This document shows positions 22,811 to 43,624 of a DNA stretch of 64,000 nucleotides, one piece after another (position 1 is the first letter of the stretch; each line of letters starts with the position of its first letter). The notes under the pieces were generated by a model. That model made no database searches. It saw only the letters and a list, made by a program, of their open reading frames with translations, and was not told where the DNA came from. A program made the position numbers and the translations under genes. This DNA comes from Bacteroidota bacterium (lineage in GTDB: Bacteria > Bacteroidota > Bacteroidia > Chitinophagales > Chitinophagaceae): positions 186,001-250,000 of the forward strand of contig JAFDZS010000001.1 in NCBI GenBank assembly GCA_018266775.1. The letters are read 5' to 3'.

Positions 22811-22890
22811 GGGTTAAGGGAGAGTGCAACAAACTTCTCCCTTACAAGATGGGGTGTACGATAAAAACCAAAAGTTTTTGTACGGACAAA
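22811..22890. other. putative oriT region upstream of mobC
   Basis: Directly upstream of mobC is a perfect 9-bp inverted repeat, TAAGGGAGA (22815-22823) and TCTCCCTTA (22836-22844), with a 12-nt loop. A second imperfect repeat around 22856-22883 pairs GTAC-AAAAAC-type arms. An inverted repeat next to a MobA/MobC pair is the usual oriT layout. The nic site is not identified. Confidence 0.5.
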
Positions 22891-23693: not shown

Positions 23694-24038
23694 ATGCTCT
23701 ATTATAAAAACGAAGAAATTGACCATGTAATGCGCCAGCAAAGGACGCTACCGAGATATGCCGGGTTAGCACGAAAAGTTTTTCATTATTATTTAGGTGA
23801 TTTATATAACCCAGAAACAATGGGATGTGATATTGAGTTTAAATTCAGGTTTTATATCCAAGGATTTGTTGAAAGGAAAGTAATAAACAAAGAGCCGTAT
23901 GATTGGCCAGTCATTGATAATTTTTTCAAACTGGTATTATATCACGAAGGGTATACTTTTCTAAATTACGATCAATCAATTTTGGACAAGGGTTATAATG
24001 GCATAGCGCATGGCGAACAGCCAAAGCATTGGGCGTGA
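23694..24038 (+). CDS. small protein, copy 1 of a tandem triplet
   Basis: A 114-aa protein of unknown family. The core is RYAGLARKVFHYYLGDLYNPET followed by EPYDWPVIDNFFKLVLYHEGYTF and a C-terminal LDKGYNGIAHGE. It is helical and soluble, with no signal or TM segment. It is strongly similar to the next gene and more distantly similar to the third copy. No function is known. The 118-bp spacer to copy 2 shows no other gene. Confidence 0.6.
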   Translation: MLYYKNEEIDHVMRQQRTLPRYAGLARKVFHYYLGDLYNPETMGCDIEFKFRFYIQGFVERKVINKEPYDWPVIDNFFKLVLYHEGYTFLNYDQSILDKGYNGIAHGEQPKHWA

Positions 24039-24156
24039 GTAGAGATAATTGTACTTATGAATGCAATGTTTTGCATTTGCATGGAGTTGATCGGCTTTCG
24101 AGGATTGAGAGAATGGATACTCCAATATAGTAAGTTTATTTATTGAGGGTGAACTG

Positions 24157-24501
24157 ATGCTCTATTATAAAAACGAAGAGATTGAACATTTTATGCGTCA
24201 GCAACGAACCTTTCCTCGCTACGCCGGATTAGCACGAAAAGTATTTCATCATTATTTAGGTGATCTATACAATCCCGAAACGACGGATTGCGAACTTGAG
24301 TTTATGATTAGATTCTATATTCATAGTTACGTGGAATTAAAAGTTATCGATAAAGAACCGTATGATTGGCCTTTAATTGATAATTTTTTCCGTTTCATAT
24401 TATACAATGAAGGGCATACTTTTCTTACTTATGATGATGAAATTCTCAATAAAGGCTATAATGGCGTTATGCGTGGTGAATTGCCAAAGCACCGAGCATA
24501 G
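24157..24501 (+). CDS. small protein, copy 2 of a tandem triplet
   Basis: A 114-aa protein nearly collinear with copy 1: the same MLYYKNEEI start, RYAGLARKVFHHYLGDLYNPET, KEPYDWPLIDNFF and LNKGYNGVMRGE. Differences are scattered substitutions, as expected of a gene duplication under selection for the protein. It is followed by copy 3 after 22 bp. A role in the mobilisation region is possible but nothing in the sequence states one. Confidence 0.6.
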   Translation: MLYYKNEEIEHFMRQQRTFPRYAGLARKVFHHYLGDLYNPETTDCELEFMIRFYIHSYVELKVIDKEPYDWPLIDNFFRFILYNEGHTFLTYDDEILNKGYNGVMRGELPKHRA

Positions 24502-24523
24502 TAAAAAATAGGAAGCATCTAAA

Positions 24524-24871
24524 ATGAAATATTATCCCGAAGAATATATGAATGAAAGAATGGCTGATCCTAAAGATAGTGGATTGAGATACGCAGGAAT
24601 AGTTCGAAGAATGATAAGCAAATATTTAGGCGATTTGTATAATCCAGAAACTTTTTCTTGGGTTGAAGAATTAGTGCTCCGAAAATTTGTAAAAGAATGG
24701 GTTGAGCAAAAAGTAATTCATAAAGTGCCCTACGACTGCAACTATATTGACAATGCATTCAAGAAGACACTTTACGATTACGGATTCACTCATGTCGAAT
24801 TTGACCACAGTACGATTGAAAAAGGTTACGAGGGAATTGACTATCACGAGTGGCCAAATTTTGGCATATAA
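24524..24871 (+). CDS. small protein, diverged copy 3 of a tandem triplet
   Basis: A 115-aa protein that keeps the family core, RYAGIVRRMISKYLGDLYNPET, KVPYDCNYIDNAFKKTLYDYGFTH and EKGYEGI, but differs from copies 1 and 2 elsewhere (for example the start MKYYPEEYMNERMADPKDS). It is the oldest duplicate or an independently evolved member. The next gene, the coupling protein, starts 195 bp downstream. Confidence 0.55.
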   Translation: MKYYPEEYMNERMADPKDSGLRYAGIVRRMISKYLGDLYNPETFSWVEELVLRKFVKEWVEQKVIHKVPYDCNYIDNAFKKTLYDYGFTHVEFDHSTIEKGYEGIDYHEWPNFGI

Positions 24872-25066: not shown

Positions 25067-27100
25067 ATGTTGAAGAATGACTTTTTACTAAGGGTAATTC
25101 TGTTTGCCGGTTTTTTTGTAATTGCCAGGCCTTTCATAGAACTTATTGGATTATTTGTTGGCCTATCCGTTCAGATAAGTTTTTGGGTTGGTATAATCGG
25201 CGCAGCCCTATTCTCTTTTTATTTTCATGGTATCGTATTTGGAAAAATTCAGCAAAGTATTGTTCGCCAGGGTGGAATAACTACTACTATGAAATGGGCA
25301 CTGTATGTATTTACAGGAATAACACTCTTAGCAGTTCTAACGCAAATCATTAATGCTACAGTTTATCAGTCGCCTGTAAGCTTAAAAACGGTAATATTTA
25401 CCGGGGAATTCCTTGATCGGTTAAAAGCATTCGGCATTCTCCTGGTAATAATTTTCGGAGCAATTCATCTATCAAAAAATCTTGTAAACAAAATCGGGTT
25501 TCAAGCCCCGAGTATAGATTTAATGGGAAGTAATTTTACGCCTACTTCCAGCATTACTTCGATTCCTGTAAAAGAAACCCTCGATGTTACTATAAGAGAA
25601 AAAAACGATAAACAAACCTTACACGGTTCATCGGAGTTTTTAGATAAAACAACTTTTAATGAACGTTATAACAAAATGGGTAATGCAATCATGCGTGAGA
25701 ATTTTGAACAAACCGGAGGGTATGTAATCATGCCCAACGCATTAAAATATATCAATCATACCCACATGATTACAATTGCAGGAGCTGGCCAGGGAAAAGG
25801 CACGACGGCGATAATTCCGAATCTTCTTACAAAACCACATGAAAGCTGGATCGTCCTTGACGTGAAAGGAGAAAATGCAGCCGTTACGGCACGGTTTCAA
25901 AAGGAGTCCGGTCAAAAGGTATTTATAATCGACCCTTTCGATGTTCAAAGATTCATAGAGGCGAAACATAATATTCCTTCATGCGGTTTTAATCCACTTG
26001 TAGTGGCAAAATATCTACCTGATGAAGAAATGAGCGATTTCGCTGCAATGATGGCGGAAATGTTTATCCCTGAAGCCGGCAAAAGCAGTTCTGCCGATGG
26101 TTTTTGGGTTGATAGTGCAAGGAATGTTTTAAAAGGATATATTCTTCATCTAATCACAGATAAAGACATTGAAAGTAAGGATAGGCATTTAGGAAAGCTA
26201 TACGAATGGCTTCGCCTCGATCAAAATAATGAAGTAGAGCTTTGGGTAAATATGGCCGTTAATCCTCAAACAGAATTTTTGGTAAACGAAATTCGTTCTT
26301 TAGCTATAGGTTCTGCAAAGACCTGGTTGGGCATCCTTTCAGAAGCAAGACGTGCAACTGCATTCTTAGAATCGCCATTAATAAAAAAATCTCTACAATC
26401 TGATGAATCTGGATTTGATCCCATGATGTTGCAAAGAGAAAATACTACAGCTTATGTGATACTGCCTGAACGAAATTTAAACACCCATAAAACATGGCTA
26501 CGCCTTGTATTTGGAACTACATTAAAGCTCTGCAATTTTATCGCAAAGCGCAGAGTCAATTTCTTATTGGATGAATTTCCTATTCTTGGAAAAATGGAAG
26601 ACTTTCTACGTGCGTATAGTTTTGGACGTGGGCAAAAGATTTCGTGTTGGATTTTTGCTCAAAGCCTCTCACAGTTAAAAGAGATATATGGAGAAGATGG
26701 GTTAAATACTTTCCTTTCTAATGCGAAACTCAGACAATTCTTTGGGATGAACGATCTCTACACTCAAAAATTTGTGTCTGATTTACTTGGTACTACAACT
26801 GAAATTACAAGTGTCTTTAATCAAGGAGTACAATCAGGATTTAATGCAAACAGTGGCACGTCAACCAGCAATATTATTAATGTAACAAATAGCATTGGAT
26901 CAGGCAGTAATTCGGGAAAGAGTGCGGGACAATCAGAACAAATAGTTCAAAGGCCTTTGTTAACTCCTGAAGAAGTAGGTAAACTAAATAACGAATTTGT
27001 TCTCCTGGTCGACGGTGATAAATACCGCATTTCAAAGACTCCTTATTTTAATAATGGGGTTTATCCTGGCAGGTTTGATCCTAACCCGTATGTGAATTAA
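25067..27100 (+). CDS. VirD4/TraG-like type IV coupling protein
   Basis: A 677-aa protein with at least three N-terminal TM segments (about 8-28, 31-55, 75-95) and a cytoplasmic ATPase domain. The Walker A region reads IAGAGQGKGTTAI (238-249), the usual coupling-protein form; Walker B is VNFLLDEFPILG (497-508). Coupling proteins deliver the relaxase-DNA complex to a type IV secretion channel. It lies between the two relaxase genes, so it could serve either. A Ser/Gly/Asn-rich linker near the C-terminus (about 600-630) precedes the final LTPEEVGKLNNEFVLLVDGDKYR. Confidence 0.9.
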   Translation: MLKNDFLLRVILFAGFFVIARPFIELIGLFVGLSVQISFWVGIIGAALFSFYFHGIVFGKIQQSIVRQGGITTTMKWALYVFTGITLLAVLTQIINATVYQSPVSLKTVIFTGEFLDRLKAFGILLVIIFGAIHLSKNLVNKIGFQAPSIDLMGSNFTPTSSITSIPVKETLDVTIREKNDKQTLHGSSEFLDKTTFNERYNKMGNAIMRENFEQTGGYVIMPNALKYINHTHMITIAGAGQGKGTTAIIPNLLTKPHESWIVLDVKGENAAVTARFQKESGQKVFIIDPFDVQRFIEAKHNIPSCGFNPLVVAKYLPDEEMSDFAAMMAEMFIPEAGKSSSADGFWVDSARNVLKGYILHLITDKDIESKDRHLGKLYEWLRLDQNNEVELWVNMAVNPQTEFLVNEIRSLAIGSAKTWLGILSEARRATAFLESPLIKKSLQSDESGFDPMMLQRENTTAYVILPERNLNTHKTWLRLVFGTTLKLCNFIAKRRVNFLLDEFPILGKMEDFLRAYSFGRGQKISCWIFAQSLSQLKEIYGEDGLNTFLSNAKLRQFFGMNDLYTQKFVSDLLGTTTEITSVFNQGVQSGFNANSGTSTSNIINVTNSIGSGSNSGKSAGQSEQIVQRPLLTPEEVGKLNNEFVLLVDGDKYRISKTPYFNNGVYPGRFDPNPYVN

Positions 27101-29462: not shown

Positions 29463-30389
29463 TTACACAGTGAGTTTTAAAGGTTGCAGATGACGCATAT
29501 AATCAACAGCCTTACTTGCCTCACTGGCTGCGGAGATAATAAAGTCTTTATTGTCTTTAAGCACTTTCAACCAATTGGCAATATAACTGGCATGGTTTGG
29601 TTTTTCAGGTGAGGTAATTTCAAATTCCGCATTTAAGAAGGCTGCACCAAGTTCTGCAACCAATTCTTCTTCTGCATAGGCATGATCGCCGAACTTATTT
29701 CTTATCTGACGATTCAACCGCTTTGAATTACCTGTCCAGTGTGTCAATTCATGCAATAGAACTGAATAGTAATTTTCTGTTGCACTGCAGGTTTTCGTAT
29801 CAATAAAGGACGAAGCAAGCGGCATATACACTTTATCCTGTAAGGGGCTGTAATACGCATCGCCGTCGTGATGATCTATGTCTGCAAAAGTATTGGCAAC
29901 AAAATTTTCAACAGAATCAATTTTCTCAACAAGCGTCTGAGGATTTTCTTCCGGCTGCGTTTCGGTTGGAACATAACTTGCCAACTGGCAGCGGTTGAAA
30001 ACGATCGAATGTTTCAGAAAAGGAATTTTTTTGATTTCGCCGTCAACTTCTTTTTCAAAAGTGTCGGTATAGATAATCAAGTTTCCTTTCTCACCTTTCT
30101 TGACAGTTTCATTTTTGGAATTCCACTGTTTGAAACTTGCCCATTCCTGGGAGGTAAATTTCTTCTCCGATGCAGCACCCCAGAGAAGCAAGATGTTTAC
30201 TCCCCGGTATCTGTTTTGCGTTACTCCGTTTTTCGGAAGTTTTAAACTTGCTTGAGAACTGTTCCATGATTGTTGCCAGGGAATCGTTCCAGCTTCGAGC
30301 TGTTTGATAATTGTATCAGTGACCTGCTGGTGAACATCGGTTCGGTTGTAAATTGGTGTCCATTTTTCAGTTGTATTTACGGATGTCAT
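29463..30389 (-). CDS. ardC: ArdC-like antirestriction protein
   Basis: A 308-aa protein of the ArdC type. Residues about 15-140 form the N-terminal ssDNA-binding (DUF1738) domain (WQQSWNS, NRYRGVNILLLWGAASEK, FKQWNSKNETVKKGEKG). The C-terminal zincin-like metallopeptidase carries H213-ELTH-217 and a downstream EELVAELGAAFLNAE. ArdC proteins protect incoming plasmid DNA on entry to the recipient. The start (MTSVNTTEKW) follows an AAGG element. It is divergent from the MobF gene, with a shared 368-bp control region. Confidence 0.9.
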   Translation of the reverse strand: MTSVNTTEKWTPIYNRTDVHQQVTDTIIKQLEAGTIPWQQSWNSSQASLKLPKNGVTQNRYRGVNILLLWGAASEKKFTSQEWASFKQWNSKNETVKKGEKGNLIIYTDTFEKEVDGEIKKIPFLKHSIVFNRCQLASYVPTETQPEENPQTLVEKIDSVENFVANTFADIDHHDGDAYYSPLQDKVYMPLASSFIDTKTCSATENYYSVLLHELTHWTGNSKRLNRQIRNKFGDHAYAEEELVAELGAAFLNAEFEITSPEKPNHASYIANWLKVLKDNKDFIISAASEASKAVDYMRHLQPLKLTV

Positions 30390-30757: not shown

Positions 30758-33460
30758 ATGATCAGAATGATACAAAGCACTTCAGCCGCACAGGCAAAGT
30801 CTTATTTCAACGATGCACTTCAAAAGTCAGATTACTATGTGAGCGACCAGGAATTGGCTGGTTCTTTTCATGGTCGTTTGGCTGATAGATTGCGTTTGAA
30901 AAAAACTGTAACAAAAGAAAATTTTGCATGCCTGACCGAAAATATTCATCCCGCTAACGGCACTAAGTTGACACAGAGAAATACGAAGCAACGTACAGTC
31001 GGCTACGATATAAATTTTCATTGCCCTAAATCGGTTTCGGTATTGCATGTTTTGTCAAAAGACAATCATATTCTGGATGCTTTCAGGCAAAGCGTTTCCG
31101 ATACGATGCTTGCCATTGAAGCGGATAGCCAGACAAGAGTTAGAAAAAACGGGAGTGATGAAAACCGCTCTACGGGCGAATTGTTGTGGGCTGAATTTAT
31201 TCATCAGACTGCACGGCCTGTGAAAGATGTCGCACCCGATCCGCATTTGCATTGTCATTGTTTTACGTTCAACATGACGTGGGATAAAACCGAGCAGCAA
31301 TTCAAAGCCGGGCAATTCCGCTCCATCAAAAGGGATATGCCTTTCTATCAGGCTATGTTTCATAAACAACTTGCCGATAATCTAATCAAACTCGGTTATC
31401 GCATTAAGCGTACACGAAAAGCATTTGAGATTGAAAATGTCCCGCAAAATGCGATTGATCTTTTTTCAAAGCGCACGAATGAGATCGGCCTCTACGCTAA
31501 AACAAACAATATCACTGATAAAAAAGAACTTGATGGCTTAGGTGCCCGTACCCGCTCCAAAAAACAAAAGGGCATGACGATGAGCCAGCTTAAAAATGAC
31601 TGGCGCAAACAAATTAGAGAGTTGGGTATGAAGGGTAATGAAGCAAACGGTACTATTATACGACATCCAAATGTAAAAGACACTTTGCGCTTATCCTCTA
31701 AGCAATGTATTGACTATGCTTTGCAGCACAGCTTTGAAAGGTTGTCGGTTTTACAGGACAGGCGTATTTTGGAAACGGCCTATCGTCATGGCTTGGGTTC
31801 ATCTGCCATATCTATTGAAAGCATCAATAAAGCTTTTACAAAAGATAACCGTATTATCCACGTAAAGGATAATGATCTTACTTTCTGTACGACTCACCAG
31901 GTTTTGGAAGAAGAACAGCGCATGGTAAGCATGGCTTGCCAGGGCAAGGGTAAGTTTCAACCCTTCTATATCTCAACGCCTGCCCTTAAGCTCAACGGAG
32001 AACAGGCTGAAGCCGCTCTTGCCATCCTGACAACCAAAGATCAGGTTTCCATCATTGCCGGAAGGGCGGGTACGGGCAAAACAACCCTTATGAAAGAGGC
32101 AGTACGGCTAATCGAAGAAACGGGCAAAGAAGTTTTGACTGTGGCTCCGACAGCCCAGGCCGCAAGGAGTGTCTTAAAAGAGGAAGGCTTCGAGCAGGCG
32201 GAAACGGTAGCTAAGCTTATTTCCGATAAAAGCCTTCAGGCAAAACTTAAAGACGGGGTATTGTGGGTGGATGAAGCCGGATTACTCGGTGTGAAAGATA
32301 TGGCGGCCCTGCTCCAAATTGCCGTTGATAATAATGCAAGACTGATCCTCGGAGGTGATACAAACCAACATGCAAGTGTCGCCCGTGGTGATGCTTTAAG
32401 GTTGCTTGAAGTGGTTGCAGGCCTTTCAGCTTTTAAAGTGAGTAAAATCTATCGCCAAAAACACAAGGTCTATAAAATGGCCGTGCAGGCTATCTCCGAT
32501 GGCGATATAGAAGAAGGCTTTAAGAAACTTGATTCGATCAATTCAATAAAAGAAATTGATAAGGCAAAGCCTGCTGCAATGCTGGTTAATGATTATATGG
32601 CTTCCATGCAAAAAGATAAAACGGCTTTGATTGTTTGTCCAACCCATAAACAAGGCGAACTTATCAGCAATGAAATCCGTAAGGCATTAAAGAAAGCAGG
32701 CAAGATCGGTAAAGCGGATATTAACGCCTCACGCATGGTTAACCTCAACCTGACGGAAGCGGAAAAAAACGACATCCGAAACTATGCGCCCGGATATATC
32801 CTGCAATTCAGCCAAAATTCAAACGGCATAAAACGTGGGAGCCGATGGGTTGTAGAAAGCATAAAAAATAATCTCCTCGAATTGACGAACAAAGAGAAGC
32901 TATCCTTACAATTTCCCATTGAAAGAAAAAAGGACTTCGATGTTTTCCAGCAAACGAATCTTCCTTTATCCAAAGGCGATACAGTTCGCATTACCCGCAA
33001 CAGCTTTGATGCCAAACAAAACCGTTTGAATAACGGGCAGGAATTAAAAGTTGTTGGTATTGATAAGAAACAGCTTGTTCGTCTACAAAATATAAAGAGT
33101 AAAGCCGAATATCTTTTGCCTAAAGACTTCGGACACATCAATCATGCTTATTGCATGACTTCCCATGCTTCGCAGGGAAAGACGGTAGATAATGTGCTAA
33201 TCTTTCAGCCATCTGAAACATTTCCTGCAACAGATATGAAACAGTTTTATGTTTCGGTTTCCCGTGGCCGTAACTCGGTAAGCATTTATACTGACGATAA
33301 ACAGGCTTTGTTCGATCAGGTAACGAAACCACGATCCCGTATGTCTGCTATCGAATTGCTAAAGGTTTCTTCGAAAAAAATAACTGATGATTCTCCTAAA
33401 AATCAAAAGGGAAACAAAACCATGAATAAATTAACATCACCATTATATTATCCTGTATAG
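30758..33460 (+). CDS. MobF-family (TrwC-like) relaxase-helicase
   Basis: A 900-aa protein combining a transesterase and a 5'-3' helicase. The relaxase domain (about 1-310) shows SDYYVSD (Tyr26/27), FHCPKSVSVLHVL, and the metal-binding HLHCH (163-167). The helicase has Walker A GRAGTGKTTL (about 432-441), WVDEAGLL (Walker B) and a C-terminal UvrD-like YVSVSRGRNSVSIYTDD. It nicks at oriT and unwinds the transferred strand. Bacteroidota MobF proteins of this type start with MIRxIQxTSAA, so the ATG at 30758 is right. It is a second relaxase in addition to MobA in this island. Confidence 0.92.
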   Translation: MIRMIQSTSAAQAKSYFNDALQKSDYYVSDQELAGSFHGRLADRLRLKKTVTKENFACLTENIHPANGTKLTQRNTKQRTVGYDINFHCPKSVSVLHVLSKDNHILDAFRQSVSDTMLAIEADSQTRVRKNGSDENRSTGELLWAEFIHQTARPVKDVAPDPHLHCHCFTFNMTWDKTEQQFKAGQFRSIKRDMPFYQAMFHKQLADNLIKLGYRIKRTRKAFEIENVPQNAIDLFSKRTNEIGLYAKTNNITDKKELDGLGARTRSKKQKGMTMSQLKNDWRKQIRELGMKGNEANGTIIRHPNVKDTLRLSSKQCIDYALQHSFERLSVLQDRRILETAYRHGLGSSAISIESINKAFTKDNRIIHVKDNDLTFCTTHQVLEEEQRMVSMACQGKGKFQPFYISTPALKLNGEQAEAALAILTTKDQVSIIAGRAGTGKTTLMKEAVRLIEETGKEVLTVAPTAQAARSVLKEEGFEQAETVAKLISDKSLQAKLKDGVLWVDEAGLLGVKDMAALLQIAVDNNARLILGGDTNQHASVARGDALRLLEVVAGLSAFKVSKIYRQKHKVYKMAVQAISDGDIEEGFKKLDSINSIKEIDKAKPAAMLVNDYMASMQKDKTALIVCPTHKQGELISNEIRKALKKAGKIGKADINASRMVNLNLTEAEKNDIRNYAPGYILQFSQNSNGIKRGSRWVVESIKNNLLELTNKEKLSLQFPIERKKDFDVFQQTNLPLSKGDTVRITRNSFDAKQNRLNNGQELKVVGIDKKQLVRLQNIKSKAEYLLPKDFGHINHAYCMTSHASQGKTVDNVLIFQPSETFPATDMKQFYVSVSRGRNSVSIYTDDKQALFDQVTKPRSRMSAIELLKVSSKKITDDSPKNQKGNKTMNKLTSPLYYPV

Positions 33461-33466
33461 GAAATT

Positions 33467-33937
33467 TTAGTTGACGTAACGGCATTCCTTTGCATATGAA
33501 TAAAAGTTATGTGGTGAAATAATCAAATGATCCATAACCTGTATTCCTAACATTTTCCCCGCTTTTACAATATTTTCGGTCATACAATCATCCGCTTTGC
33601 TTGGCTTCAGATTTTCAGAAGGGTGATTGTGCGCCAGGAATATTGCGGATGAGTTTACCCGGAGGGCTGTAGCGAAAACAACTCTTGGATCAATTAAACA
33701 AACAGCTATACCGCCGGTTGCGATATGTGATACGCCGAGGCAATTGTGGCTCTGGTCTACCATCATCATGTAACACTGCTCCACCATTCCTATTTTATTC
33801 ATATCCCACATCTGCAAAAACACATCATAAGCATTTTCCGGGCTTAAAATCTTATGACGATCGGCAGGGTTTACTTTGTTACGATAGAATAATTCTATTT
33901 CCGAAACGCTAAACATGGATTGAACTTTACTACGCAT
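33467..33937 (-). CDS. RadC-like JAB/MPN-domain protein
   Basis: About 156 aa from MRSKVQSMFSVSE, which is preceded by a clear GGGAGG ribosome-binding site. It is a RadC-type metalloprotein with the JAMM motif H103-N-H105-PSENLKPS...D116 and a preceding VDQSHNCLG strand. RadC proteins in mobile elements often occur with primases and antirestriction genes, but their biochemical role is unclear. It lies 13 bp after the primase gene and convergent with MobF. Confidence 0.85.
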   Translation of the reverse strand: MRSKVQSMFSVSEIELFYRNKVNPADRHKILSPENAYDVFLQMWDMNKIGMVEQCYMMMVDQSHNCLGVSHIATGGIAVCLIDPRVVFATALRVNSSAIFLAHNHPSENLKPSKADDCMTENIVKAGKMLGIQVMDHLIISPHNFYSYAKECRYVN

Positions 33938-33950
33938 CTTTTCCTCCCGG

Positions 33951-34859
33951 TTACAATTCAAGTTTTGCCATATGAGCTGCATTAACGTCCTTGTAAGGCA
34001 GATAGATTTCGTTCATCGGGACGTGCAAGAGATTTTCTTCCGTTTTGCAAAAACCTTCCCATGATTTTGTTGCCTCAATTCCGGGTTCATCATTATCCAT
34101 CCACGTATAAGCGTATCGGTAACCATAGTTTTTAAGATAAGCAGATGCCTTTTTTAAATTGCTCAGGGAATGTAAAATCAGGCTGTCATTTTCAAAAGGT
34201 TTTCCATTGAGTTGAGCGATTGCAGAAGCAAAATCAAAAGCTCCTTCAAAAATATTGATACCTTCCGGTTTCGGCTTGGTGCCCCGGATAAACGTAATAT
34301 ATTTCTTACCTATGCAGCCCTTGAAATAAGGATTACGCAGTTCGTAACCTTTAAGATCATTCCGCATACAAAGCGAGTAGAATTTCTTTTGTGTTTTGGT
34401 ATTGAATACTGCCGCTTCCACAAAATATGTTCTCAGGATGCTTTCAGGAATACCTCGGTTATTCCCGTATTCGATTAGCTTCACTTGTTTAATCTTATTG
34501 ACTTCTCTTAATACAAGTGTTTTTTCTGCTGAAACTTCGTCAGGATCAATCACCGGTTTTATATCGGGAATAAAGCCGGTCATATTCCGAAGCCAACGCA
34601 AAGCGTCGGTAACTTCGCAGTTCTCGTTTTCGTTGTTTAAATAGCCACGTACCAGGTGAATAATGTCTCCACCTATCCATTTACTATCGCCGAAGTCTCG
34701 CCAGAGATTGTTTTTGGTATCTACCCATAGGCTCGGCGTTTTCTCCCTACGGAAAGGCGAGAAATACAAGACCCGGTGGCCGCTTGTGCGTTGCGGCGCA
34801 AGATTAAGCTTGTCAAGAATTACGGAAATAGGTATGGATTTAGCCTGCTCGATGTTCAT
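33951..34859 (-). CDS. Toprim-domain primase-like protein
   Basis: A 302-aa protein. The N-terminus (HRVLYFSPFRREKTPSLWVD, FGDSKWIGGDIIHLVRGY) is a DnaG-type zinc-binding fold without its cysteines. The C-terminal Toprim shows INIFEGAFDFASAIAQ and YRYAYTWMDNDEPGIEAT, with the DxD-like DND. Proteins of this type make primers for transferred DNA or help replication of mobile elements. It has an AAGGAGC ribosome-binding site before MNIEQAK and is followed by radC after 13 bp. Confidence 0.8.
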   Translation of the reverse strand: MNIEQAKSIPISVILDKLNLAPQRTSGHRVLYFSPFRREKTPSLWVDTKNNLWRDFGDSKWIGGDIIHLVRGYLNNENENCEVTDALRWLRNMTGFIPDIKPVIDPDEVSAEKTLVLREVNKIKQVKLIEYGNNRGIPESILRTYFVEAAVFNTKTQKKFYSLCMRNDLKGYELRNPYFKGCIGKKYITFIRGTKPKPEGINIFEGAFDFASAIAQLNGKPFENDSLILHSLSNLKKASAYLKNYGYRYAYTWMDNDEPGIEATKSWEGFCKTEENLLHVPMNEIYLPYKDVNAAHMAKLEL

Positions 34860-34948: not shown

Positions 34949-35173
34949 TTAGGGTTTCATCCGATCCTCTAAAAATTTATCGAGAACTGAACGCCTGTAG
35001 CGCACCAACTTTTTCCCGATTTTTATCGGCTGCAGATCATAGCGTTTGGTACAATCCCAAACGGCAAGGGTTGCAGGCTTTAAACCGCCTAAGTATTTTG
35101 CTGCGGCAACACGGTCGAGTAATTCATCTTCATTATCGGCATTGGATTTTGAATCAGTTTTGTTCTTATTCAT
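34949..35173 (-). CDS. excisionase-like helix-turn-helix protein
   Basis: A 74-aa protein with a MerR/AlpA-type HTH (RVAAAKYLGGLKPATLAVWDCTKRYDLQPIKIGKKLVRYRRSVLDKFL). Small proteins of this form act as recombination directionality factors. It is preceded by GAGG before the ATG. It heads the minus-strand primase-radC unit and faces the attP-like region and second integrase across about 500 bp, which fits an excisionase role for that integrase. Confidence 0.75.
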   Translation of the reverse strand: MNKNKTDSKSNADNEDELLDRVAAAKYLGGLKPATLAVWDCTKRYDLQPIKIGKKLVRYRRSVLDKFLEDRMKP

Positions 35174-35420: not shown

Positions 35421-35438
35421 GGGCGCAATAGAGGCGCA
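35421..35438 (+). repeat. arm-type site doublet P (integrase 2)
   Basis: GGGCGCAATAGAGGCGCA is identical to 35648-35665. The GGCGCA boxes are 11 bp apart, the same spacing as the arm doublets of integrase 1. It lies 44 bp from the tRNA-Val core, almost the same distance as the right arm to core of the outer element (44 bp, 43325 to 43370). Confidence 0.6.
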
Positions 35439-35482
35439 TTGACATTTACGTATCACCTGACAATATATTAAGTAGTTGAAAT

Positions 35483-35527
35483 TGGTGGGCGCAACAGGGA
35501 TTGAACCTGTGACCTCTCCCATGTCAA
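35483..35527 (-). pseudogene. 3' fragment of tRNA-Val(GAC), putative att core
   Basis: On the minus strand it reads TTGACAT (anticodon loop with GAC), GGGAG (stem), AGGTC, ACAGG-TTCAATC-CCTGT (T-arm), TGCGCCC (acceptor) and ACCA. The 5' half is missing and sequence diverges beyond the loop. It resembles the tRNA half carried by an element's own attP. No second copy is seen in the window. Confidence 0.65.
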
Positions 35528-35647
35528 TTGGATTTATGGCTTATTATGGTATGTTTATATGCATATATAAAACCGATTATTATTTGAAATATAATCGGAT
35601 TCTGATACACCCATAGTTTCCATAAATTCACCTGTTTTCACCCCTTA

Positions 35648-35667
35648 GGGCGCAATAGAGGCGCAAT
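35648..35667 (+). repeat. arm-type site doublet P' (integrase 2)
   Basis: This is the second copy of GGGCGCAATAGAGGCGCA, here extended by AT so that both GGCGCAAT boxes are complete. It lies 10 bp before the integrase 2 start codon. Confidence 0.6.
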
Positions 35668-35676
35668 GGAGAAGCT

Positions 35677-36846
35677 ATGTCATCTACAATAAACTTCAAA
35701 AAAGATGCAATACAAGCATTACCAATACAAACCAAAACTTACTCCGTCTTTGATATAAAGACGCCTCACCTAAGAATAACTGTTTACCCTTCGGGAATAA
35801 AAACATTCATGCTATGCCGGAAGGTTAATGGTATTTGGCTGAGAATGAAAATTGGCCGGACAACTGATCTGACAGTTGAGGAAGCAAGAAAAGAAGCTCT
35901 GCGTCTGAATTCATTGATAGCATTGGGTGGTAATCCCTATGCAGAAAAGCAGGCTGCTCGAAAAGAACTGACTTTTAGAGAACTTTATGAGTTTTATTAC
36001 TGTCAACATGCTTTGCATTATACCAAACGCCCAAAAGCAAATCGACAAACTATGGAGCTTCATGTTTTGCCTGTATTGGGTAATTTGCGAGGAAGTGAAT
36101 TAACTGGTGAAAAGTTAAGAAAGCTACATTTTAAAATTGCAGAGAACAGTTCTAAAAGTACGGCAAACCGGGTTGTTGCAATTATTTCTCCTGTTTTCAA
36201 TTTTTGTATTAAGCATTCGTATTATAATGGGACTAATCCATGTGTAGCTATACAGAAGTTTCGCACGAAAAGCCGCGACAGGTTTTTAAGTCCAGAGGAG
36301 TTAAACAAATTTTTTGATGCTGTACAAAAAGAAGAAGATTTGTTTAAGCATTTCTTTTTGATGCTTTTGTATACTGGCGCAAGAAAATCAAATGTTTTAT
36401 CAATGAAATGGGTTGACCTCGATTTTCAGATTAATCGTTGGCGGATTGCTGAATCCGAAACAAAAAACGGAGAAGTCAATGTTATTCCATTGTGTGAGCC
36501 AGCTATTGAAATCTTGAAGCAACGATTAGAGAAAAATAACGCCTTAGCTGAACCCTCTTTATATGTTTTTCCAGGCGAAGGAGAAGGAGGCTATTTAGCT
36601 GACCCAAAAAGAGCATTTGAAAGAGTTAGAAAACGTATGGGGGTTATGGATTTTAGAATGCACGATTTGCGTAGAACATTAGGTAGCTACATGGCTATAA
36701 ACGGAGCCAGTTTACCGATCATCGGAAAAGCCCTGAATCATAAGAGCCAGATTTCAACGGCCATATACGCCCGGTTGTCTCAGGCTCCGGTGCTGGATGC
36801 AATTACAACGGCTGTTACTATGATTAAAAGCTATAAAACAAAGTAA
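35677..36846 (+). CDS. tyrosine site-specific integrase (integrase 2, P4-like)
   Basis: A 389-aa integrase of the P4/DUF4102 type: an N-terminal arm-binding domain (KTYSVFDIKTPHLRITVYPSGIKTFML, LRMKIGR, TVEEARKEA), a SAM-like domain (about 100-190) and a catalytic domain with YTGARKSNVLSM (Arg about 235), MHDLRRTLGSYM (His-x-x-Arg, about 329), and LNHKSQISTAIYARL (His and nucleophile Tyr about 366). It is unrelated in detail to integrase 1, so the island carries two integration enzymes. The adjacent tRNA-Val core makes that tRNA its probable target. Confidence 0.9.
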   Translation: MSSTINFKKDAIQALPIQTKTYSVFDIKTPHLRITVYPSGIKTFMLCRKVNGIWLRMKIGRTTDLTVEEARKEALRLNSLIALGGNPYAEKQAARKELTFRELYEFYYCQHALHYTKRPKANRQTMELHVLPVLGNLRGSELTGEKLRKLHFKIAENSSKSTANRVVAIISPVFNFCIKHSYYNGTNPCVAIQKFRTKSRDRFLSPEELNKFFDAVQKEEDLFKHFFLMLLYTGARKSNVLSMKWVDLDFQINRWRIAESETKNGEVNVIPLCEPAIEILKQRLEKNNALAEPSLYVFPGEGEGGYLADPKRAFERVRKRMGVMDFRMHDLRRTLGSYMAINGASLPIIGKALNHKSQISTAIYARLSQAPVLDAITTAVTMIKSYKTK

Positions 36847-37466: not shown

Positions 37467-37796
37467 ATGGCAGAAAGTTTCGGCGAATACATTAGAAACT
37501 TAAGAAACGGCCATGGGTACACTCTAACTCAATTAGCCGCTAAACTGGGAATTGATTCAAGTGCTTTGAGTAAAATTGAAACTAATAAGAAAAATTTTGA
37601 CGCAAAATTATTAGGGACTTTATCTGAAATATTCTCTTTGGATGAAAGGACCTTAAAAAATGAATTTTATAGTGAAACAGTAGCAAAAATCCTATTTGAC
37701 AACCATTGCTCAGAAGAAGTACTGTCAATTGCGGCGACAAAAATTAACCTTCTCAAAAATAAGAACATTAAACAAAGCAGCTTAAACTTCAAATGA
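37467..37796 (+). CDS. XRE-family regulator, likely R-M controller protein
   Basis: A 109-aa protein. The N-terminal XRE HTH reads FGEYIRNLRNGHGYTLTQLAAKLGIDSSALSKIETNKKNF. The C-terminal region is helical. It overlaps the following R-M-S gene by 4 bp, so its translation is coupled to it. That position and the palindromes upstream suggest it delays or controls restriction gene expression. Confidence 0.8.
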   Translation: MAESFGEYIRNLRNGHGYTLTQLAAKLGIDSSALSKIETNKKNFDAKLLGTLSEIFSLDERTLKNEFYSETVAKILFDNHCSEEVLSIAATKINLLKNKNIKQSSLNFK

Positions 37797-40700
37797 CCCC
37801 GACAATCGACATCAAGGCCTTGCTAAAAGTTTTAGGATTTTCTCTTGAAGAGGGGAAAGACGGGGTTTGGTTAAAATCTTTTGCCAATCATAGCAACTAT
37901 AAAATTAAGGTAGATCTGACATCTGAAACAATTGATTATGGTAAGCAAATTACTGTTGTAGGAAAAACCACCTCAAATTTTAAAGCTGCCGAAAACCTAG
38001 TTGTTTTAGAGTGCGTCAATCGACTCTTGGAAAAAGGGTATAAACCTAAAAATATTCACTTAGAAAAGACTTGGGCAACAGGGCACGGCACGAGTGGGCG
38101 GTTAGATATATTAGTTACGCATGATAACGGTACTGCATATTTAATGATCGAATGCAAAACTTATGGGGCTGAATTTGACAAAGAGTTCAAAAAGGTCTTG
38201 AAGGATGGAGGTCAGTTATTCACCTATTTTCAGCAAGACAAAAATGCTGATATCCTTATGCTGTATGCATCGCATTTGGATAAAGGAAAATTAATATACC
38301 GGAACGAGATAGTAAAAATCGAAGAAGATTATCGCCAAACAGGCAATGTAAAAGATTTTTACGATAGATGGAATAAGTTACCCAAAAACAATGGGGTATT
38401 TGATAGCTGGGTTAAAGCTTATGATTTTCAAAGTAAAGCTCTAACGCCTAAAAATTTGAAGGATATAAAACAAGAAGATAGTAGCTTTATTTTTAACCAA
38501 TTCTTGGAAATACTAAGACACAATGTTGTGTCAGACAAACCAAATGCTTTCAATAAAATATTCACGCTTTTTCTGTGCAAAATATACGATGAAAAGGTTA
38601 CTAAGCCTACTAATGAACTGGCTTTTCAATGGTTCTATACTCCGTATGAATACGAGGGCATAAGCTACCCACCAGATGACAATATTTCATTCCAAAAAAG
38701 GTTAACTGATCTTTACAAAAAGGGGATGAAAGAATTTTTAGACAAATCAGTTACAGATATTTCTGATGCAGATTTTGAAAAAAAGTACGGAAAGCTTGAT
38801 GCTGTTACCAAGAAACAGATTTTAGATGAGTTTACTGAAATACGTCTGAAAAAAAATAATGAATTTGCTATAAAAGAAGTTTTTAATGATGATTCTTTTA
38901 TCGAAAATGCAAAGGTAGTTAAAGAAGTTGTTGAGCTTTTGCAAGGTTATAAAATTCGTTACACAAAAAAACAGCAATACCTAAGTGATTTTTTTGAATT
39001 ACTACTTACAACTGGCTTAAAACAAGAATCTGGACAGTTTTTTACACCAGTACCTATTGCGCAATTTATTATAAAAAGTATTCCGCTTGATAAAATTGTG
39101 GCGGATAAACTTGAGAAAGGTGAAAAGGATAATTTGCTGCCAACTATCATTGATTACGCAGCTGGCAGTGGACATTTTATTACCGAAAGTATGCACGAGG
39201 TTCAAAGGATAATTGATAAAACAAACCCAGATGATTTTGTTGATGGTACGGGTAAGAAAATTTCATCTTGGAAGACGGATCATTTTGATTGGGCATTCCA
39301 ATACATCTACGGGATTGAAAAAGATTATAGACTAGTGAAGGTTGGTAAAGTTGGTTGCTACCTTCATGGCGACGGCTTAGCACAAATTGTACATAGTGAT
39401 GGTCTTGGCAATTTCTCTAAAACGGAAGAGTATAAAGGCTTGTTACGAAAGTTTGATAAGGATTTTCCGAAAGAAAATAAGCAGTTCGATATTGTTGTTT
39501 CAAATCCTCCGTATTCAGTCTCTGCATTTAAAAATAATGCTCGAAAATTCTACACAGAAGATGACTTTGAAATCTATGAAAAACTAACTGATCAAAGTAG
39601 CGAAATAGAATGCTTATTTATTGAGCGAACTAAGCAACTTCTTAAAGATGGTGGCATAGCTGGAATAATTCTACCCAGCAGTATACTTAGTAATACTGGA
39701 ATCTATACAAAAGCCCGTGAAATTATTTTACAATATTTTGATATTGTTGGCATTGCAGAATTAGGTGGCAACACATTCATGGCAACTAATACAAGTACAG
39801 TTACTCTTTTTTTGCGAAGAAGAAATAATTATTTCAGCGTTAATATTCGGGCACTTGTTAAAAAAAGCCTGGCAGATTTCAAAGATGTTACAATAAACGC
39901 TATTGAAAAGCCGCTTAGTAAATATGTTGATCATGTTTGGCAAGGCATTACTTATAAAGATTACGTAACCCTTTTACAACAACAACCTAATGATTTAGTC
40001 AAACAGCATGAAATTTACAAAGAGTATAGCAAAAAAATAAAAGCAAAAAGCGATACTGAATTTTGGAATGCTGTTCTCGAATTAGAAGAAGAAAAAGTTT
40101 TCTATTTTGTATTAGCTTATCCTCAAAAAGTTGTTTTAATTAATAGTGGCGAAAAAAATGATGAAAAAGATTTTTTAGGATACGAGTTTAGCAATCGCAG
40201 AGGAAGTGAAGGAATACACCCGATACAAAGAGGAAAAAGTATAGATGAGTGCACTAAACTCTTTGATCCCGAGGTTTTTGAAAACTCCGAAAAAGCAAGT
40301 ACCTATATTTATAAAGCCTTTCAAGGAGATTTTTTTAGTAAGATTCATCCAACTCTTGAAAAGAATATTTCCCGTCTACAATTGGTTGATATGTTAACTT
40401 ATGACAGGATAGAATTTGAAAAAAATATATCCCTCATTGGAAAAAAAAAAGTAAAGCTCGAAAGTAAATGGCCTCAAACAAAATTAGAGGACGTTTCAGT
40501 TTTACTTTTAAGAGGGAAATCAGCCAAATATGGGAATTCAAAAATACAAGTAATTAAATCAGGCCAAGCACGGGGCTATAAAGAATTTAATTTTTCAGAA
40601 AAATATTATACTGATGCTAATTACCAGCTTGATGAAAGACAATTAAAAAAAGGAGATGTTTTAATTAACTCTTCAGGTGTCGGAACCGCTGGTAGAGTTA

Positions 40701-41605
40701 CCTTATTTGAATTGGATGGTACATTTGTAACAGACAGCCATATTACACTTTTAAGGGCCGATAAACTTAAAATCATTCCCGATTATATATTACAGTGTTT
40801 AGCTTGTATTGGATTTAAAAATATTGAGGCTATGGCCATGGGGCAAAGCGGTCAAATTGAGTTATCGCTTACAACAATTCAAAATATCAAAATCCCCTTA
40901 CCTCCACTAAAAGTACAAGAAAAAATTAGTAGTGAAATTTCGAAAGTTGATCTGAAAATTGACACACTTAAAAAATCTCTCAAAGAGTTGAAGAGTAAAA
41001 AGGATGAAATCATACAGCGATATTTTAATTCAAATAAAGAAATTAAACGGTTAAGTGAAATCGCCGATTTTAAAAGAGGTCCGTTTGGAGGGTCCTTGAA
41101 AAAAGAAATATTTACCGATTCTGGTTATAAGGTTTATGAACAAAAGCATGCCATTGCAAATGATTTTACCGTTGGTAGATATTTTATAAGCGAAGAAAAA
41201 TTTGCTGAAATGAAAACTTTTGAATTATTACCAGGTGATTTGATTATGAGTTGTTCTGGAACTATAGGAAAAATAGCGGTATTTCCCAGCACAGCACAGA
41301 AAGGTATTATTAATCAAGCCCTCCTCAGATTTAGACCTAAATCAAAAATAACAACATCTAAATATTTAAAAGTTTGCTTATCATATATAACCGATAAATT
41401 TGAAGAAAACAGTCATGGTTCTGGGCTAAAAAATGTCGCCTCGGTTGAGATTCTAAAAGATATTAAAGTATATGCTCCGTCAATTGAAGAACAGGAAAAA
41501 ATAATTTCTCAAATTGAGAAATTAGAAAATGAGATTGAGAAATTAGAAAATGAGGTTTTAAATATTCCCGCTGAAAGAGAAAGTATCCTTTTAAAATATC
41601 TATAA
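37793..41605 (+). CDS. single-chain restriction-modification-specificity protein
   Basis: A 1270-aa fused protein. Residues about 60-130 hold a PD-(D/E)xK-like nuclease (D105, E120-C-K122 in MIECKTYG). Residues about 400-720 are an N6-adenine methyltransferase (D454-YAAGSGHF, motif I; SNPPYSV at 570-576, motif IV). Residues about 890-1270 are two target-recognition domains separated and ended by long coiled coils (LPPLKVQEKISSEISKVDLK; IEEQEKIISQIEKLENE). There is no DEAD/helicase motor, so it is a type IIG or type I-like R-M-S fusion. It should both methylate and cut near a bipartite site. The two TRDs would define two half-sites. Confidence 0.85.
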   Translation: MTPTIDIKALLKVLGFSLEEGKDGVWLKSFANHSNYKIKVDLTSETIDYGKQITVVGKTTSNFKAAENLVVLECVNRLLEKGYKPKNIHLEKTWATGHGTSGRLDILVTHDNGTAYLMIECKTYGAEFDKEFKKVLKDGGQLFTYFQQDKNADILMLYASHLDKGKLIYRNEIVKIEEDYRQTGNVKDFYDRWNKLPKNNGVFDSWVKAYDFQSKALTPKNLKDIKQEDSSFIFNQFLEILRHNVVSDKPNAFNKIFTLFLCKIYDEKVTKPTNELAFQWFYTPYEYEGISYPPDDNISFQKRLTDLYKKGMKEFLDKSVTDISDADFEKKYGKLDAVTKKQILDEFTEIRLKKNNEFAIKEVFNDDSFIENAKVVKEVVELLQGYKIRYTKKQQYLSDFFELLLTTGLKQESGQFFTPVPIAQFIIKSIPLDKIVADKLEKGEKDNLLPTIIDYAAGSGHFITESMHEVQRIIDKTNPDDFVDGTGKKISSWKTDHFDWAFQYIYGIEKDYRLVKVGKVGCYLHGDGLAQIVHSDGLGNFSKTEEYKGLLRKFDKDFPKENKQFDIVVSNPPYSVSAFKNNARKFYTEDDFEIYEKLTDQSSEIECLFIERTKQLLKDGGIAGIILPSSILSNTGIYTKAREIILQYFDIVGIAELGGNTFMATNTSTVTLFLRRRNNYFSVNIRALVKKSLADFKDVTINAIEKPLSKYVDHVWQGITYKDYVTLLQQQPNDLVKQHEIYKEYSKKIKAKSDTEFWNAVLELEEEKVFYFVLAYPQKVVLINSGEKNDEKDFLGYEFSNRRGSEGIHPIQRGKSIDECTKLFDPEVFENSEKASTYIYKAFQGDFFSKIHPTLEKNISRLQLVDMLTYDRIEFEKNISLIGKKKVKLESKWPQTKLEDVSVLLLRGKSAKYGNSKIQVIKSGQARGYKEFNFSEKYYTDANYQLDERQLKKGDVLINSSGVGTAGRVTLFELDGTFVTDSHITLLRADKLKIIPDYILQCLACIGFKNIEAMAMGQSGQIELSLTTIQNIKIPLPPLKVQEKISSEISKVDLKIDTLKKSLKELKSKKDEIIQRYFNSNKEIKRLSEIADFKRGPFGGSLKKEIFTDSGYKVYEQKHAIANDFTVGRYFISEEKFAEMKTFELLPGDLIMSCSGTIGKIAVFPSTAQKGIINQALLRFRPKSKITTSKYLKVCLSYITDKFEENSHGSGLKNVASVEILKDIKVYAPSIEEQEKIISQIEKLENEIEKLENEVLNIPAERESILLKYL

Positions 41606-41606
41606 T

Positions 41607-42419
41607 CTAAATTCCAAAATGCTTAATAATTTGATTAAAACACTCTAGGTCTACTTTAGTAAACTGTTGTTGTTTTTTAACCGCCAATCCAACATGGATA
41701 GCTGCATTTCTTTTCTTTTGTAAGTCAATTAAATGTGTCATAGGAAAATTAAATGTCCTATCAAGCTTTAATAGCTTCAAATAAGTAATCATTTTCCCAA
41801 GTCCCAGAGTTCTATCATCATCAAGAATTTTTTTATCAATATCTTGTTCTAAGAGCACTTGATATAAAATAACTTCAGAAATAGCTCCTGCTAAAATTAT
41901 AGCAGTGTTATAACTTTCGTTTTTTACATTGTGTAGATAGTCCTTATAAAATTCCCCTATAAGATTTTTGAAAAGAGAATTTTCCTTTTTGATCACTGTT
42001 TCTGTGACCTTTGGAATTTTATTTCCATGCGAAGGAACGGGAATGTCTAGAGAGTTTATTATTATTCTCGGTATCCGTAGAAAAACGGCTCCTACTGCAA
42101 AACTTGCCAGGTATTCTTTTGTTTCTTCCAAACCTAAAAACCAATGCAGATAATTAGGTGATATTCCAAGGTCGATTGCAAATTCATTTAGTGGCAGCGG
42201 AGTTGAAAATCCTTTATTAGGTGTATCCTTATCTAATATTTTTAACCGCAACTGAGAATCACCAGAGGCCATTATCACTAAGGTTCCTTTTGGAATAGTG
42301 CTATTAGCTTTAATAGAATTGATAAGTGTGCCCAGCCTGTGCTTTGCACTATTCTTAAATTTTTGGTCTAAAAATTTCTTATGACGATCTTCTAATTTAG
42401 ATTCCATGATCTTTTTCAT
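41607..42419 (-). CDS. TRD-like/HEPN-domain fusion protein
   Basis: About 270 aa from [16 protein letters not shown], whose ATG overlaps the preceding TGA by 4 bp. The N-terminal half resembles a type I specificity [26 protein letters not shown] followed by [17 protein letters not shown]. The C-terminal half is helical with [10 protein letters not shown], which carries R237-x4-H242, the HEPN RNase motif. Fusion of a TRD-like and a HEPN part is unusual. It ends one base from the end of the R-M-S gene (convergent). A stress-triggered RNase tied to restriction is a reasonable but unproven idea. Confidence 0.6.
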
Positions 42420-43234
42420 GATTGGAAAATACCCCAATCAGGTTTAGCTTCTGCGATTGCAGCATTTTTATGTTTGGCTTCCAATAATTGTAGAAATTTA
42501 ATTGTCGCTGTCATATTGGTAAAAATTAATACACTCTCATCATAATTCAAAACAGGATTGTCGTGGGCGAAACTTTTATTATTACGAATATCATTAAATG
42601 CTTGAATTACTTGAAACGAGTATTGAATTATTTTTTCAGCCATTTCAGATTCAATAAATCCTTTGTTCTTTATTTCTTTAATATACTTCCCGTATAAGGC
42701 ATTCACTGTCTCTTCTTTAGAATAATTCACACTATGGCTATCGCATAATTCCTTTAGGAATTTGATGGCGAAAACATGAAGCCTATCCAAAGCAGCTTCC
42801 GGTTCATTTTTTTCAATACTCTCCTTTATAAGTTTGGCTAACTGATGAAAATCTTTGTCCTCGTTGTTAGCTTGTATGGCATCTATATGCGGTACTATAC
42901 TCTCACTTAGTAAACGTTCTGAGATCTTGTGAAATTCTTCAAAAAGCTGGGTATTAATACTCCGTTCTGTTCGTGCGTGTTCACTTAAATTCAATTCATA
43001 AAGACTTTTGAAAAGTTTTCCGACGGTATAGTCAGATTCAATCTTGATAAATTGCCTTAAACGGTTTGCTTTTGACGTCCCTTGGGTTTTATATTTTTCG
43101 TCATTAATATCTAAATTAACCGCATCCCCGACAAAATTCGCAATCGTCCTATCTGAGAAGCTAAGTACATATCCACCTCCCATTTCTAGGAATTGTTCTG
43201 TAGTTTTAGTCTCATTATAAGAGAGTTTTGCCAT
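42416..43234 (-). CDS. HEPN-domain abortive-infection-like protein (AbiC-like)
   Basis: About 272 aa from an ATG at 43234 preceded by AGGAAA. The N-terminal region ([32 protein letters not shown]) matches a recurrent N-terminal module of abortive-infection families. The C-terminal part is HEPN with [18 protein letters not shown], that is R217-x6-H224. It resembles Abi_C-type proteins. It is translationally coupled to the TRD/HEPN gene by an ATGA overlap. The pair faces the R-M-S gene, so they may form an effector or a regulatory module of it. Confidence 0.65.
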
Positions 43235-43304
43235 TATTTTCCTCAATTAATTGTACTTATAGTATAGGATAGAGGCAAGAATTTTCAACCTTTCACATGA
43301 ACTG

Positions 43305-43325
43305 ACGTGCAAATTGCGTGCAAAT
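43305..43325 (+). repeat. right arm-type site doublet (integrase 1)
   Basis: CGTGCAAATTGCGTGCAAAT (43306-43325) is identical to 9642-9661 near the left end. It lies 44 bp from the attR core. Presence at both ends of the island in the same orientation marks it as an integrase arm site rather than a chance repeat. Confidence 0.65.
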
Positions 43326-43369: not shown

Positions 43370-43414
43370 TGCTCCCCCTGCTGGACTTGAACCAGCGACC
43401 CTCTGATTAACAGT
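43370..43414 (-). repeat. attR: 45-bp direct repeat
   Basis: Identical to attL (9491-9535). Here it is part of the intact tRNA-Asn gene, meaning the element replaced the 3' half of the tRNA with its own copy. Confidence 0.9.
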
Positions 43415-43445
43415 CAGATGCTCTAACCAACTGAGCTAAGGAGGA
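43372..43445 (-). tRNA. tRNA-Asn(GTT)
   Basis: A 74-nt minus-strand gene. The acceptor stem is TCCTCCT with AGGGGGA, the anticodon stem TCTGA/TCAGA encloses the loop CTGTTAA (anticodon GTT), and the T-arm GCTGG-TTCAAGT-CCAGC is perfect. CCA is not encoded. Its 3' half is the target of integrase 1 and comes from the inserted element. It is the only intact copy of three related tRNA sequences in the window. Confidence 0.93.
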
Positions 43446-43459: not shown

Positions 43460-43531
43460 TTTTTCCCTGTTTGAACCAGCGTCCCTCCCGACTATCAGTC
43501 GGGATGTGCAAACCAACTGAGCTAAGGAGGA
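43460..43531 (-). pseudogene. decayed tRNA copy with GAT anticodon-like loop
   Basis: The 5' half is nearly identical to tRNA-Asn (TCCTCCTTAGCTCAGTTGGTT). The anticodon arm instead reads CCCGA-CTGATAG-TCGGG, giving anticodon GAT (Ile). The T-arm is damaged (CTGGTTCAAACAGGG, no CCAGC) and the 3' acceptor strand is lost. It is therefore unlikely to work. The hairpin resembles short palindromes that spread in Bacteroidota genomes. Confidence 0.6.
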
Positions 43532-43624
43532 ATTTTAACCGTCATAGTTTTAACGAAGGCGGTTTCCCTTTTTAGGGAGGGCAAAAGTAAGGCATTTTAG
43601 GTTTTGGAAAAAAAATTAGCGCAA

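Follow-up and report, generated by a model that had tools for sequence, protein, structure and literature searches.

A 33.9-kb genomic island integrated in a tRNA-Asn gene of a Bacteroidota host is probably a mobilizable element with two integration modules, the inner of which is idle in this host because its target is missing. Most descriptions of integrative elements concern a single integrase with a single attachment site. Here, the island (9491-43414 of the window, i.e., of the whole 64-kb stretch of DNA that was analyzed) contains a second tyrosine integrase gene, int2, beside an intact attP-like site, attP2. A preliminary description of this DNA had proposed that two modules were present, each with its own tRNA core, and that only one of them had been used. 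This proposal was supported, and the arrangement is repeated in two further elements.

The island is held in tRNA-Asn by the first integrase, Int1. At its left end lies a displaced 3' fragment of tRNA-Asn (attL1; 9491-9535, minus strand), a 45-bp block identical to 43370-43414. At its right end, the latter forms the outer core (attR1) of an intact tRNA-Asn(GTT) gene (43371-43445, minus strand). Each core is accompanied by an arm doublet on the plus strand, GCGTGCAAATTGCGTGCAAAT on the int1 side (9641-9661) and ACGTGCAAATTGCGTGCAAAT on the tRNA side (43305-43325), so that the geometry reads arm-44-core (in bp) next to tRNA-Asn and core-105-arm next to int1. The open reading frame (ORF) of int1 (9697-10989, plus strand) encodes a tyrosine integrase with the Pfam domains Arm-DNA-bind_5, Phage_int_SAM_5, and Phage_integrase, which we take to be of the Bacteroidetes type. 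The duplicated cores and the arms show that Int1 placed the island in the host tRNA-Asn gene. By eye, degenerate tRNA-like stretches were also seen just beyond the island ends, namely, an Asn-like 3' fragment to the left of the island (9373-9420) and, to its right, a tRNA-like copy that lies upstream of tRNA-Asn (43466-43535), hinting at older insertions at this gene.

The inner site, attP2, has a single 45-bp core (35483-35527, minus strand) between two copies of an 18-bp doublet, GGGCGCAATAGAGGCGCA (35421-35438 and 35648-35665, both on the plus strand). The two copies are identical, share the same orientation, and form the only such pair in the window. When reverse-complemented, the core reads from the anticodon loop (GAC) to the encoded CCA, and tRNA typing assigned it to the 3' half of tRNA-Val(GAC). 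The last 32 of its 45 nucleotides are identical in 10 IMG/VR stretches, as expected of the 3' part of a tRNA gene; for all 45 nucleotides, no exact match was seen elsewhere, and none was present in the host genome. The spacing is arm-44-core-120-arm, and int2 starts 11 bp past the second doublet. The coordinates that the preliminary description gave for the doublets, the core, and the start of int2 (35677) proved exact, and its likening of the outer geometry to the inner one (44 bp on one side, 105 to 120 bp on the other) is borne out by the coordinates; the outer doublets differ in sequence from the inner ones. A core flanked left and right by arm-type sites has the form of an attP, as had been claimed. 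No second copy of the inner core was found in the window at up to 16/45 mismatches, nor was one found in the genome at up to 3/30. A nested element integrated by Int2, which needs a second inner core, was rejected on this ground.

The distinctiveness of the doublet depends on the scale at which it is viewed. At up to three mismatches, GGGCGCAATAGAGGCGCA gave just two matches in the 64-kb window, where shuffled sequences gave a mean of 0.04 and 0 of 100 shuffles reached two. The looser doublet pattern GCGCAATNNNGGCGCAA occurred at five sites in the whole genome with at most one mismatch, two of them being the attP2 arms, and at 34 sites with at most two mismatches, compared with 3 for the reversed control pattern. 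Thus, doublet-like words as such are not rare in the genome, which counts against the two-module reading.

The product of int2 (35677-36846, plus strand) is a tyrosine integrase, presumably P4-like, in which an arm-binding domain (Arm-DNA-bind_3) is joined to a catalytic domain (Phage_integrase). In an alignment of three homologues that includes the window protein, R236, K263, H329, R332, H355, and Y364, which we take to be the catalytic residues, are invariant. A gene for a small HTH_17 protein (34949-35173, minus strand), the candidate excisionase (Xis/RDF) of Int2, lies between the toprim gene and attP2. Its counterparts occupy the same position in the two other elements, and their Pfam matches were above the cut-off; the match in the window was below it (E = 9e-4). 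Judged from the sequence, the block formed by the Xis-like gene, attP2, and int2 looks like a complete second module whose attP has not recombined.

The gene content of the island was examined by a Pfam scan of all 29 listed ORFs; below 100 amino acids (aa), the scan covered the HTH_17 gene. Two relaxase families are present in the one island. The first, a PF03432 relaxase with a NikA/MobC-like accessory protein (21509-22832, minus strand), has relatives in one of the two related elements (G674), and no relative was detected in a 99-kb stretch around the other (G644). The second, a MobF relaxase/helicase (TrwC; 30758-33460, plus strand), has relatives of 56 to 57% identity in both, so that MobF alone was detected in G644. 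The same pattern was seen for the VirD4/TraG-type coupling protein (25067-27100, plus strand), with a partial relative of 32% identity in G674 and none detected in the 99-kb G644 stretch. Both elements have relatives of the ArdC-type antirestriction protein (29463-30389, minus strand; 55 to 60% identity), the RadC-like protein (33467-33982, minus strand; 44 to 50%), the primase-like toprim protein (33951-34859, minus strand; 44 to 46%), and the serine recombinase with a Resolvase domain (19206-19913, minus strand; 47%). Defense-like cargo was recognized by Pfam and PADLOC at 11051-19093 and 37467-43246, including an AAA protein (PADLOC PDC-S06), a SoFic-like Fic protein, a caspase-like protein, an HNH protein, and GmrSD, and a type IIG restriction-methylase and an Abi_C protein adjoin int2. 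Three similar consecutive ORFs of 114 to 115 aa at 23694-24871 had no Pfam match. Among the 29 ORFs, 11 of which had no match at all, the conjugation machinery comprised the relaxases and the VirD4-type protein only, and no mating-apparatus family was detected by Pfam. With an integrase and a relaxase bounded by att repeats and no mating-pair apparatus of its own among these ORFs, the island fits an integrative mobilizable element that carries a second, idle integration module.

The tRNA target of this module was not found in the host. At up to three mismatches, the last 30 bp of the tRNA-Val fragment occurred once in the 5.08-Mb host genome, in attP2 itself, and a loose tRNA pattern returned only the attP2 core, one tRNA-Asp, and one tRNA-Thr. 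In addition, Val(GAC) was absent among the 38 distinct host tRNA sequences typed from 38 loci, the sole Val being TAC (the scan yielded at least 43 tRNA matches, with 150 of 278 candidates scored). Among 298 genomes of the order, the window's own was the only one to contain the 30-bp end at up to two mismatches. An unrecombined attP2 would follow from the lack of a matching host tRNA gene. The preliminary description had staked its reading on the fragment being a tRNA-Val gene end in this genome. No such gene was found within the searches made, whereas full tRNA-Val(GAC) genes exist elsewhere, in IMG/VR stretches. Because the fragment is the 3' half of tRNA-Val(GAC) there, the failure to find that gene in the host may explain the idleness of the module and does not make the module unreal. 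A tight array of eight tRNA matches, mostly with low scores and with a phage-like look, was also noticed in the window genome (G000:C11:726000-726815).

Relatives of Int2 with more than 50% identity were found in two other elements, one in Mucilaginibacter phyllosphaerae (G644; 53%) and one on JASGCQ010000004.1, a contig titled Phycisphaerales MAG05 (G674; 60%), and the reading frame is open in all three. Both came from a scan of genome contigs that was limited to two short peptide patterns (36 stretches, 2 relatives). With int2 alone, 10 pattern stretches in genome contigs and 7 in viral contigs contained no relative, and a two-row Int2 profile gave two partial matches in viral contigs (23 to 27% identity). 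Int2 relatives were detected in 3 of 395 genomes of the phylum at E 1e-60 (the window's own, G644, and G417) and in 3 of 395 genomes of the class at E 1e-70 (the window's own, G644, and G758). Among plasmids, 502 records had int2 relatives, all below 60% identity and at 27 to 31% among the 15 matches listed. In G758, a distant relative, a tRNA-like 3' half is followed by one doublet before the integrase gene; no second arm was seen on this 5.2-kb contig, which begins about 100 bp before the tRNA-like half. In G417, also distant, one doublet precedes the integrase gene and a tRNA-Ser follows it, with a single 13-bp repeat of the tRNA-Ser end 19.5 kb away. No element integrated by a close Int2 relative was found in the homology searches, which counts against the two-module reading.

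The architecture of the two related elements is the same as that in the window. Each has an outer frame with an int1-like gene and a duplicated tRNA end. In G644, the duplicated stretch is a 103-bp block that includes the tRNA-Leu end, its two copies bounding the element at a distance of 33.6 kb; in G674, it is a 44-bp tRNA-Phe core, and 36.2 kb separate the copies at the two ends. The outer doublets of G644, TGTTGTACCTATGTTGTACC, are present at both ends, and those of G674 are of the same kind. The interior of both contains MobF, ArdC, RadC, the toprim protein, and the HTH_17 gene, followed by arm, tRNA half, arm, and int2. The gene order of G674 resembles that of the window, and the int2-MobF block of G644 is inverted relative to its outer frame. 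Thus, in 3/3 elements, an intact arm-core-arm site adjoins int2 inside an Int1-type island. The inner cores are Val(GAC), Thr(GGT), and Val(GAC) in the window, G644, and G674, respectively, and the outer ones are Asn, Leu, and Phe; a tandem array of like elements, in which a junction would resemble an attP, was rejected on the basis of these different cores. In the same order, the arm-core spacing is 44, 56, and 43 bp, the core-arm spacing is 120, 121, and 118 bp, and the distance from arm to ATG is 11, 22, and 15 bp, as measured with arms of 18, 18, and 21 bp and with an in-frame ATG downstream of the first as the int2 start of G644. Each of the six inner arms has its two units 11 bp apart, a distance of roughly one turn of the helix.

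A single copy of the inner core was found in each genome searched (at up to 3/30 mismatches for the window, 3/26 for G644, and 3/30 for G674), and the Mucilaginibacter genome, too, yielded no tRNA gene that matches its core. For G674, the tRNA-Phe of the contig differed by eye at two positions from that of the window genome. The Phycisphaerales label may be wrong for this contig, which was perhaps mis-binned, and the missing target in that bin says little because the label does not fit its tRNA-Phe.

Comparison of the three elements points to the inner module as their steadier part, although Int1 and not Int2 placed the island: the outer integrases are less alike (28 to 30% identity between the window and the other two, 48 to 49% between those two) than the shared inner genes (44 to 61%). 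The two inner arms are identical at 19/20, 17/20, and 18/20 positions within the three elements and at only 2 to 10 of 20 between them, a pattern that would arise if every attP kept pace with the Int2 of its own element. From the intact Int2, the arms matching within and not between elements, and the similar geometry in three diverged elements, we infer that the inner module is under selection rather than junk, with the caveat that these are three elements in all and that, being related by descent, they count as fewer than three independent cases. Its recurrence in two relatives makes the spare module look maintained rather than accidental.

In the proposed mechanism, Int1 integrated the island into tRNA-Asn of a Bacteroidota host, where attP2 presumably stays unrecombined for want of a tRNA gene matching its core. 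The excised circle would carry both attP1 and attP2 and could enter by whichever target the recipient offers. In a host with a matching tRNA-Val(GAC), Int2 would recombine attP2 with that gene, inserting the circular element. If the island already resided in tRNA-Asn and the target was present, Int2 would split or invert the island, as in rhizobial polypartite integrative and conjugative elements (ICEs). With both targets present, recombination at the second one would lead to a chromosomal rearrangement of the kind reported for those elements, and this would explain why an intact attP2 is found where the target is missing. The likely benefit of the second module would be a wider range of integration sites.

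The preliminary description had offered either a cointegrate of two elements or a dual-target element. The two are not mutually exclusive, and presence in three diverged elements favors a kept dual-target element, whatever its origin. A different matter is an unselected cointegrate, in which an element with MobF, toprim, Int2, and attP2 was captured once in an Int1 island and attP2 is a dead relic. We consider this doubtful. The captured partner would be a plasmid-like or integrative element, joined via homologous recombination or the serine recombinase. Two relaxases and two integrases are what a fusion would have, and the inverted int2-MobF block of G644 is in line with it. The 11.3-kb plasmid pSP2_3 of Runella sp. 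SP2 resembles the island in its MobF (41%) and toprim (32%) relatives and differs in being a plasmid with RepA and with no integrase among its 11 listed features, although its gene table may be incomplete. In a two-integrase element of Frankia, likewise, excision by the second integrase was not seen, for which a missing directionality factor was blamed (PMC3218068). However, Int2 is open and has kept its presumed catalytic residues at 40 to 47% amino acid divergence, and although the arms have changed from element to element, the two arms of each element still match, unlike those of a relic. A fusion origin as such is compatible with the kept dual-target element; only the "unselected" part is disfavored.

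The origin of the inner cores bears on which hosts the modules may serve. The window core differs at 2/45 positions from that of the Acetobacter phage phiAX1 (LC644973.1) and at 4/45 from tRNA-Val of Methylobacterium bullatum, compared with 7 to 11 of 45 for 17 tRNA-Val loci of the phylum Bacteroidota, which came from a pattern at up to three mismatches that may miss nearer genes. The phiAX1 sequence (5329-5373), a tRNA-Val 3' half that carries no annotation, lies 82 bp away from the annotated integrase and is likely the att core of that phage. The 10 IMG/VR stretches with the exact last 32 nucleotides have a GC content of 46 to 68% (window, 39%), and none of the 10 matches the anticodon stem of the window core; ARAGORN predicted full tRNA-Val(GAC) in three of them, two being clear by eye. 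The exact 32-mers of the G644 and G674 cores were found in 0 IMG/VR stretches each. CCA is encoded in all three inner cores and in only 4 or 5 of the 38 host tRNA sequences; it is also encoded in at least one same-phylum Val gene (G493). Given these differences and the CCA, the window core is likely foreign and nearer to alphaproteobacterial tRNA-Val than to any Bacteroidota gene found.

The G644 core is as far from Ruegeria pomeroyi (4/45) as from a genome of the family to which the window belongs (4/45). At position 73, where this core has A, the 10 genes found for it in the phylum Bacteroidota have T, and they lack the CCA that the core encodes. The G674 core is 3/45 from a same-phylum gene versus 6/45 from Methylobacterium. 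An alphaproteobacterial origin of all three cores was rejected, as the plasmid and phage collections were without Bacteroidota chromosomes and same-phylum genes tie or are closer for G644 and G674. It is conceivable, though we regard it as rather unlikely, that the modules serve different phyla, with Int1 directed to Bacteroidota tRNA genes and Int2/attP2 to Alphaproteobacteria, in an element built for both. The window core and the CCA in all cores fit this reading, the G644 tie and the G674 core speak against it, and no mirror-image case, with Int2 having inserted a copy into an alphaproteobacterial genome, was found.

Less probable still is a bipartite element caught at its first step, in which the second attP and a second chromosomal attB would split the island in a proper host. 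Precedents exist: in the excerpts of the respective reports, the two-step path arrives at just such a state, as the attP brought in by the first integration goes on to recombine with its partner attB (PMC9174649), and a separate att set belongs to each of IntS, IntG, and IntM in ICE3 (PMC5882170). Here, no split form was seen in any of the genomes searched, each with its one core copy, the 29 island ORFs included no mating-apparatus family, and the three islands, at 34 to 36 kb, are far below the size of those ICEs.

It is very improbable that attP2 serves as a multimer-resolution site of the excised circle or as a landing pad for other elements. An Int-attP pair kept without an integration product in 3/3 elements would suit such a role, but the cores are tRNA 3' halves (Val, Thr, and Val) starting in the anticodon loop, which resolution does not need, and all three are uninterrupted. 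That the arms and the tRNA fragment are chance or tandem-accretion debris of an older element, as the degenerate tRNA-like stretches beyond both ends of the tRNA-Asn locus might suggest by eye, can practically be dismissed, given exact doublets against a chance expectation of 0.04 and the recurrence of the same arrangement in two other genomes at other tRNA loci.

By title and the start of the abstract, no Bacteroidota island with two integration modules appeared among the matches listed from the open-licence literature. The nearest known systems to the dual-target island are the rhizobial polypartite ICEs. Like the island, Mesorhizobium ICE3 (IntS/IntG/IntM; attPS/attPG/attPM) has more than one tyrosine integrase per element, and according to the excerpt each is provided with its own att sites and a small HTH-type directionality factor (PMC5882170). 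Unlike the island, ICE3 is conjugative, alphaproteobacterial, and dispersed over several chromosomal sites, and Mesorhizobium symbiosis ICEs measure about 0.5 Mb; the island is found in Bacteroidota as a single 34-kb piece, and one of its attP sites is unrecombined, its target not having been found. The bipartite tRNA-Val symbiosis ICE (symICE) of Bradyrhizobium also has two att sets, one at tRNA-Val, and its first integration leaves an attP facing a second attB (PMC9174649, excerpt). Its second target, near ybgC, is present in the strains described there, whereas that of the island is a tRNA gene not found in the host.

Other elements share single traits with the island. ICEHpa1/ICEPmu1 of the Pasteurellaceae and Fcci3390 of Frankia have two tyrosine integrases in one element. 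For ICEHpa1, the excerpt leaves open which integrase acts and describes one tRNA-Leu junction (PMC7438473), and for Fcci3390, it reports excision of the attL-attR segment only, besides an attL2/attR2 pair (PMC3218068). In neither excerpt is an intact arm-core-arm site described inside an element integrated elsewhere, unlike in the island. The "two attP sites" of PMC11476347 are, in the part of the text available, two sequences and not one element. The phage phiAX1 likewise has its integrase next to a tRNA-Val 3' core but is an alphaproteobacterial phage with one integration module in the stretch read.

In general, the island has two integrases with separate att sets in one element, as polypartite ICEs do, but it lacks their conjugation apparatus among the ORFs scanned and is continuous between the tRNA-Asn cores, with a single inner core, and is thus no member by the split-element definition. 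By analogy, it would act like a polypartite ICE halted after the first step. A conserved spare module that seems to be in working order although no target was found would suggest selection across several kinds of hosts. The island may also serve as a small, tractable model for how one-piece elements turn polypartite.
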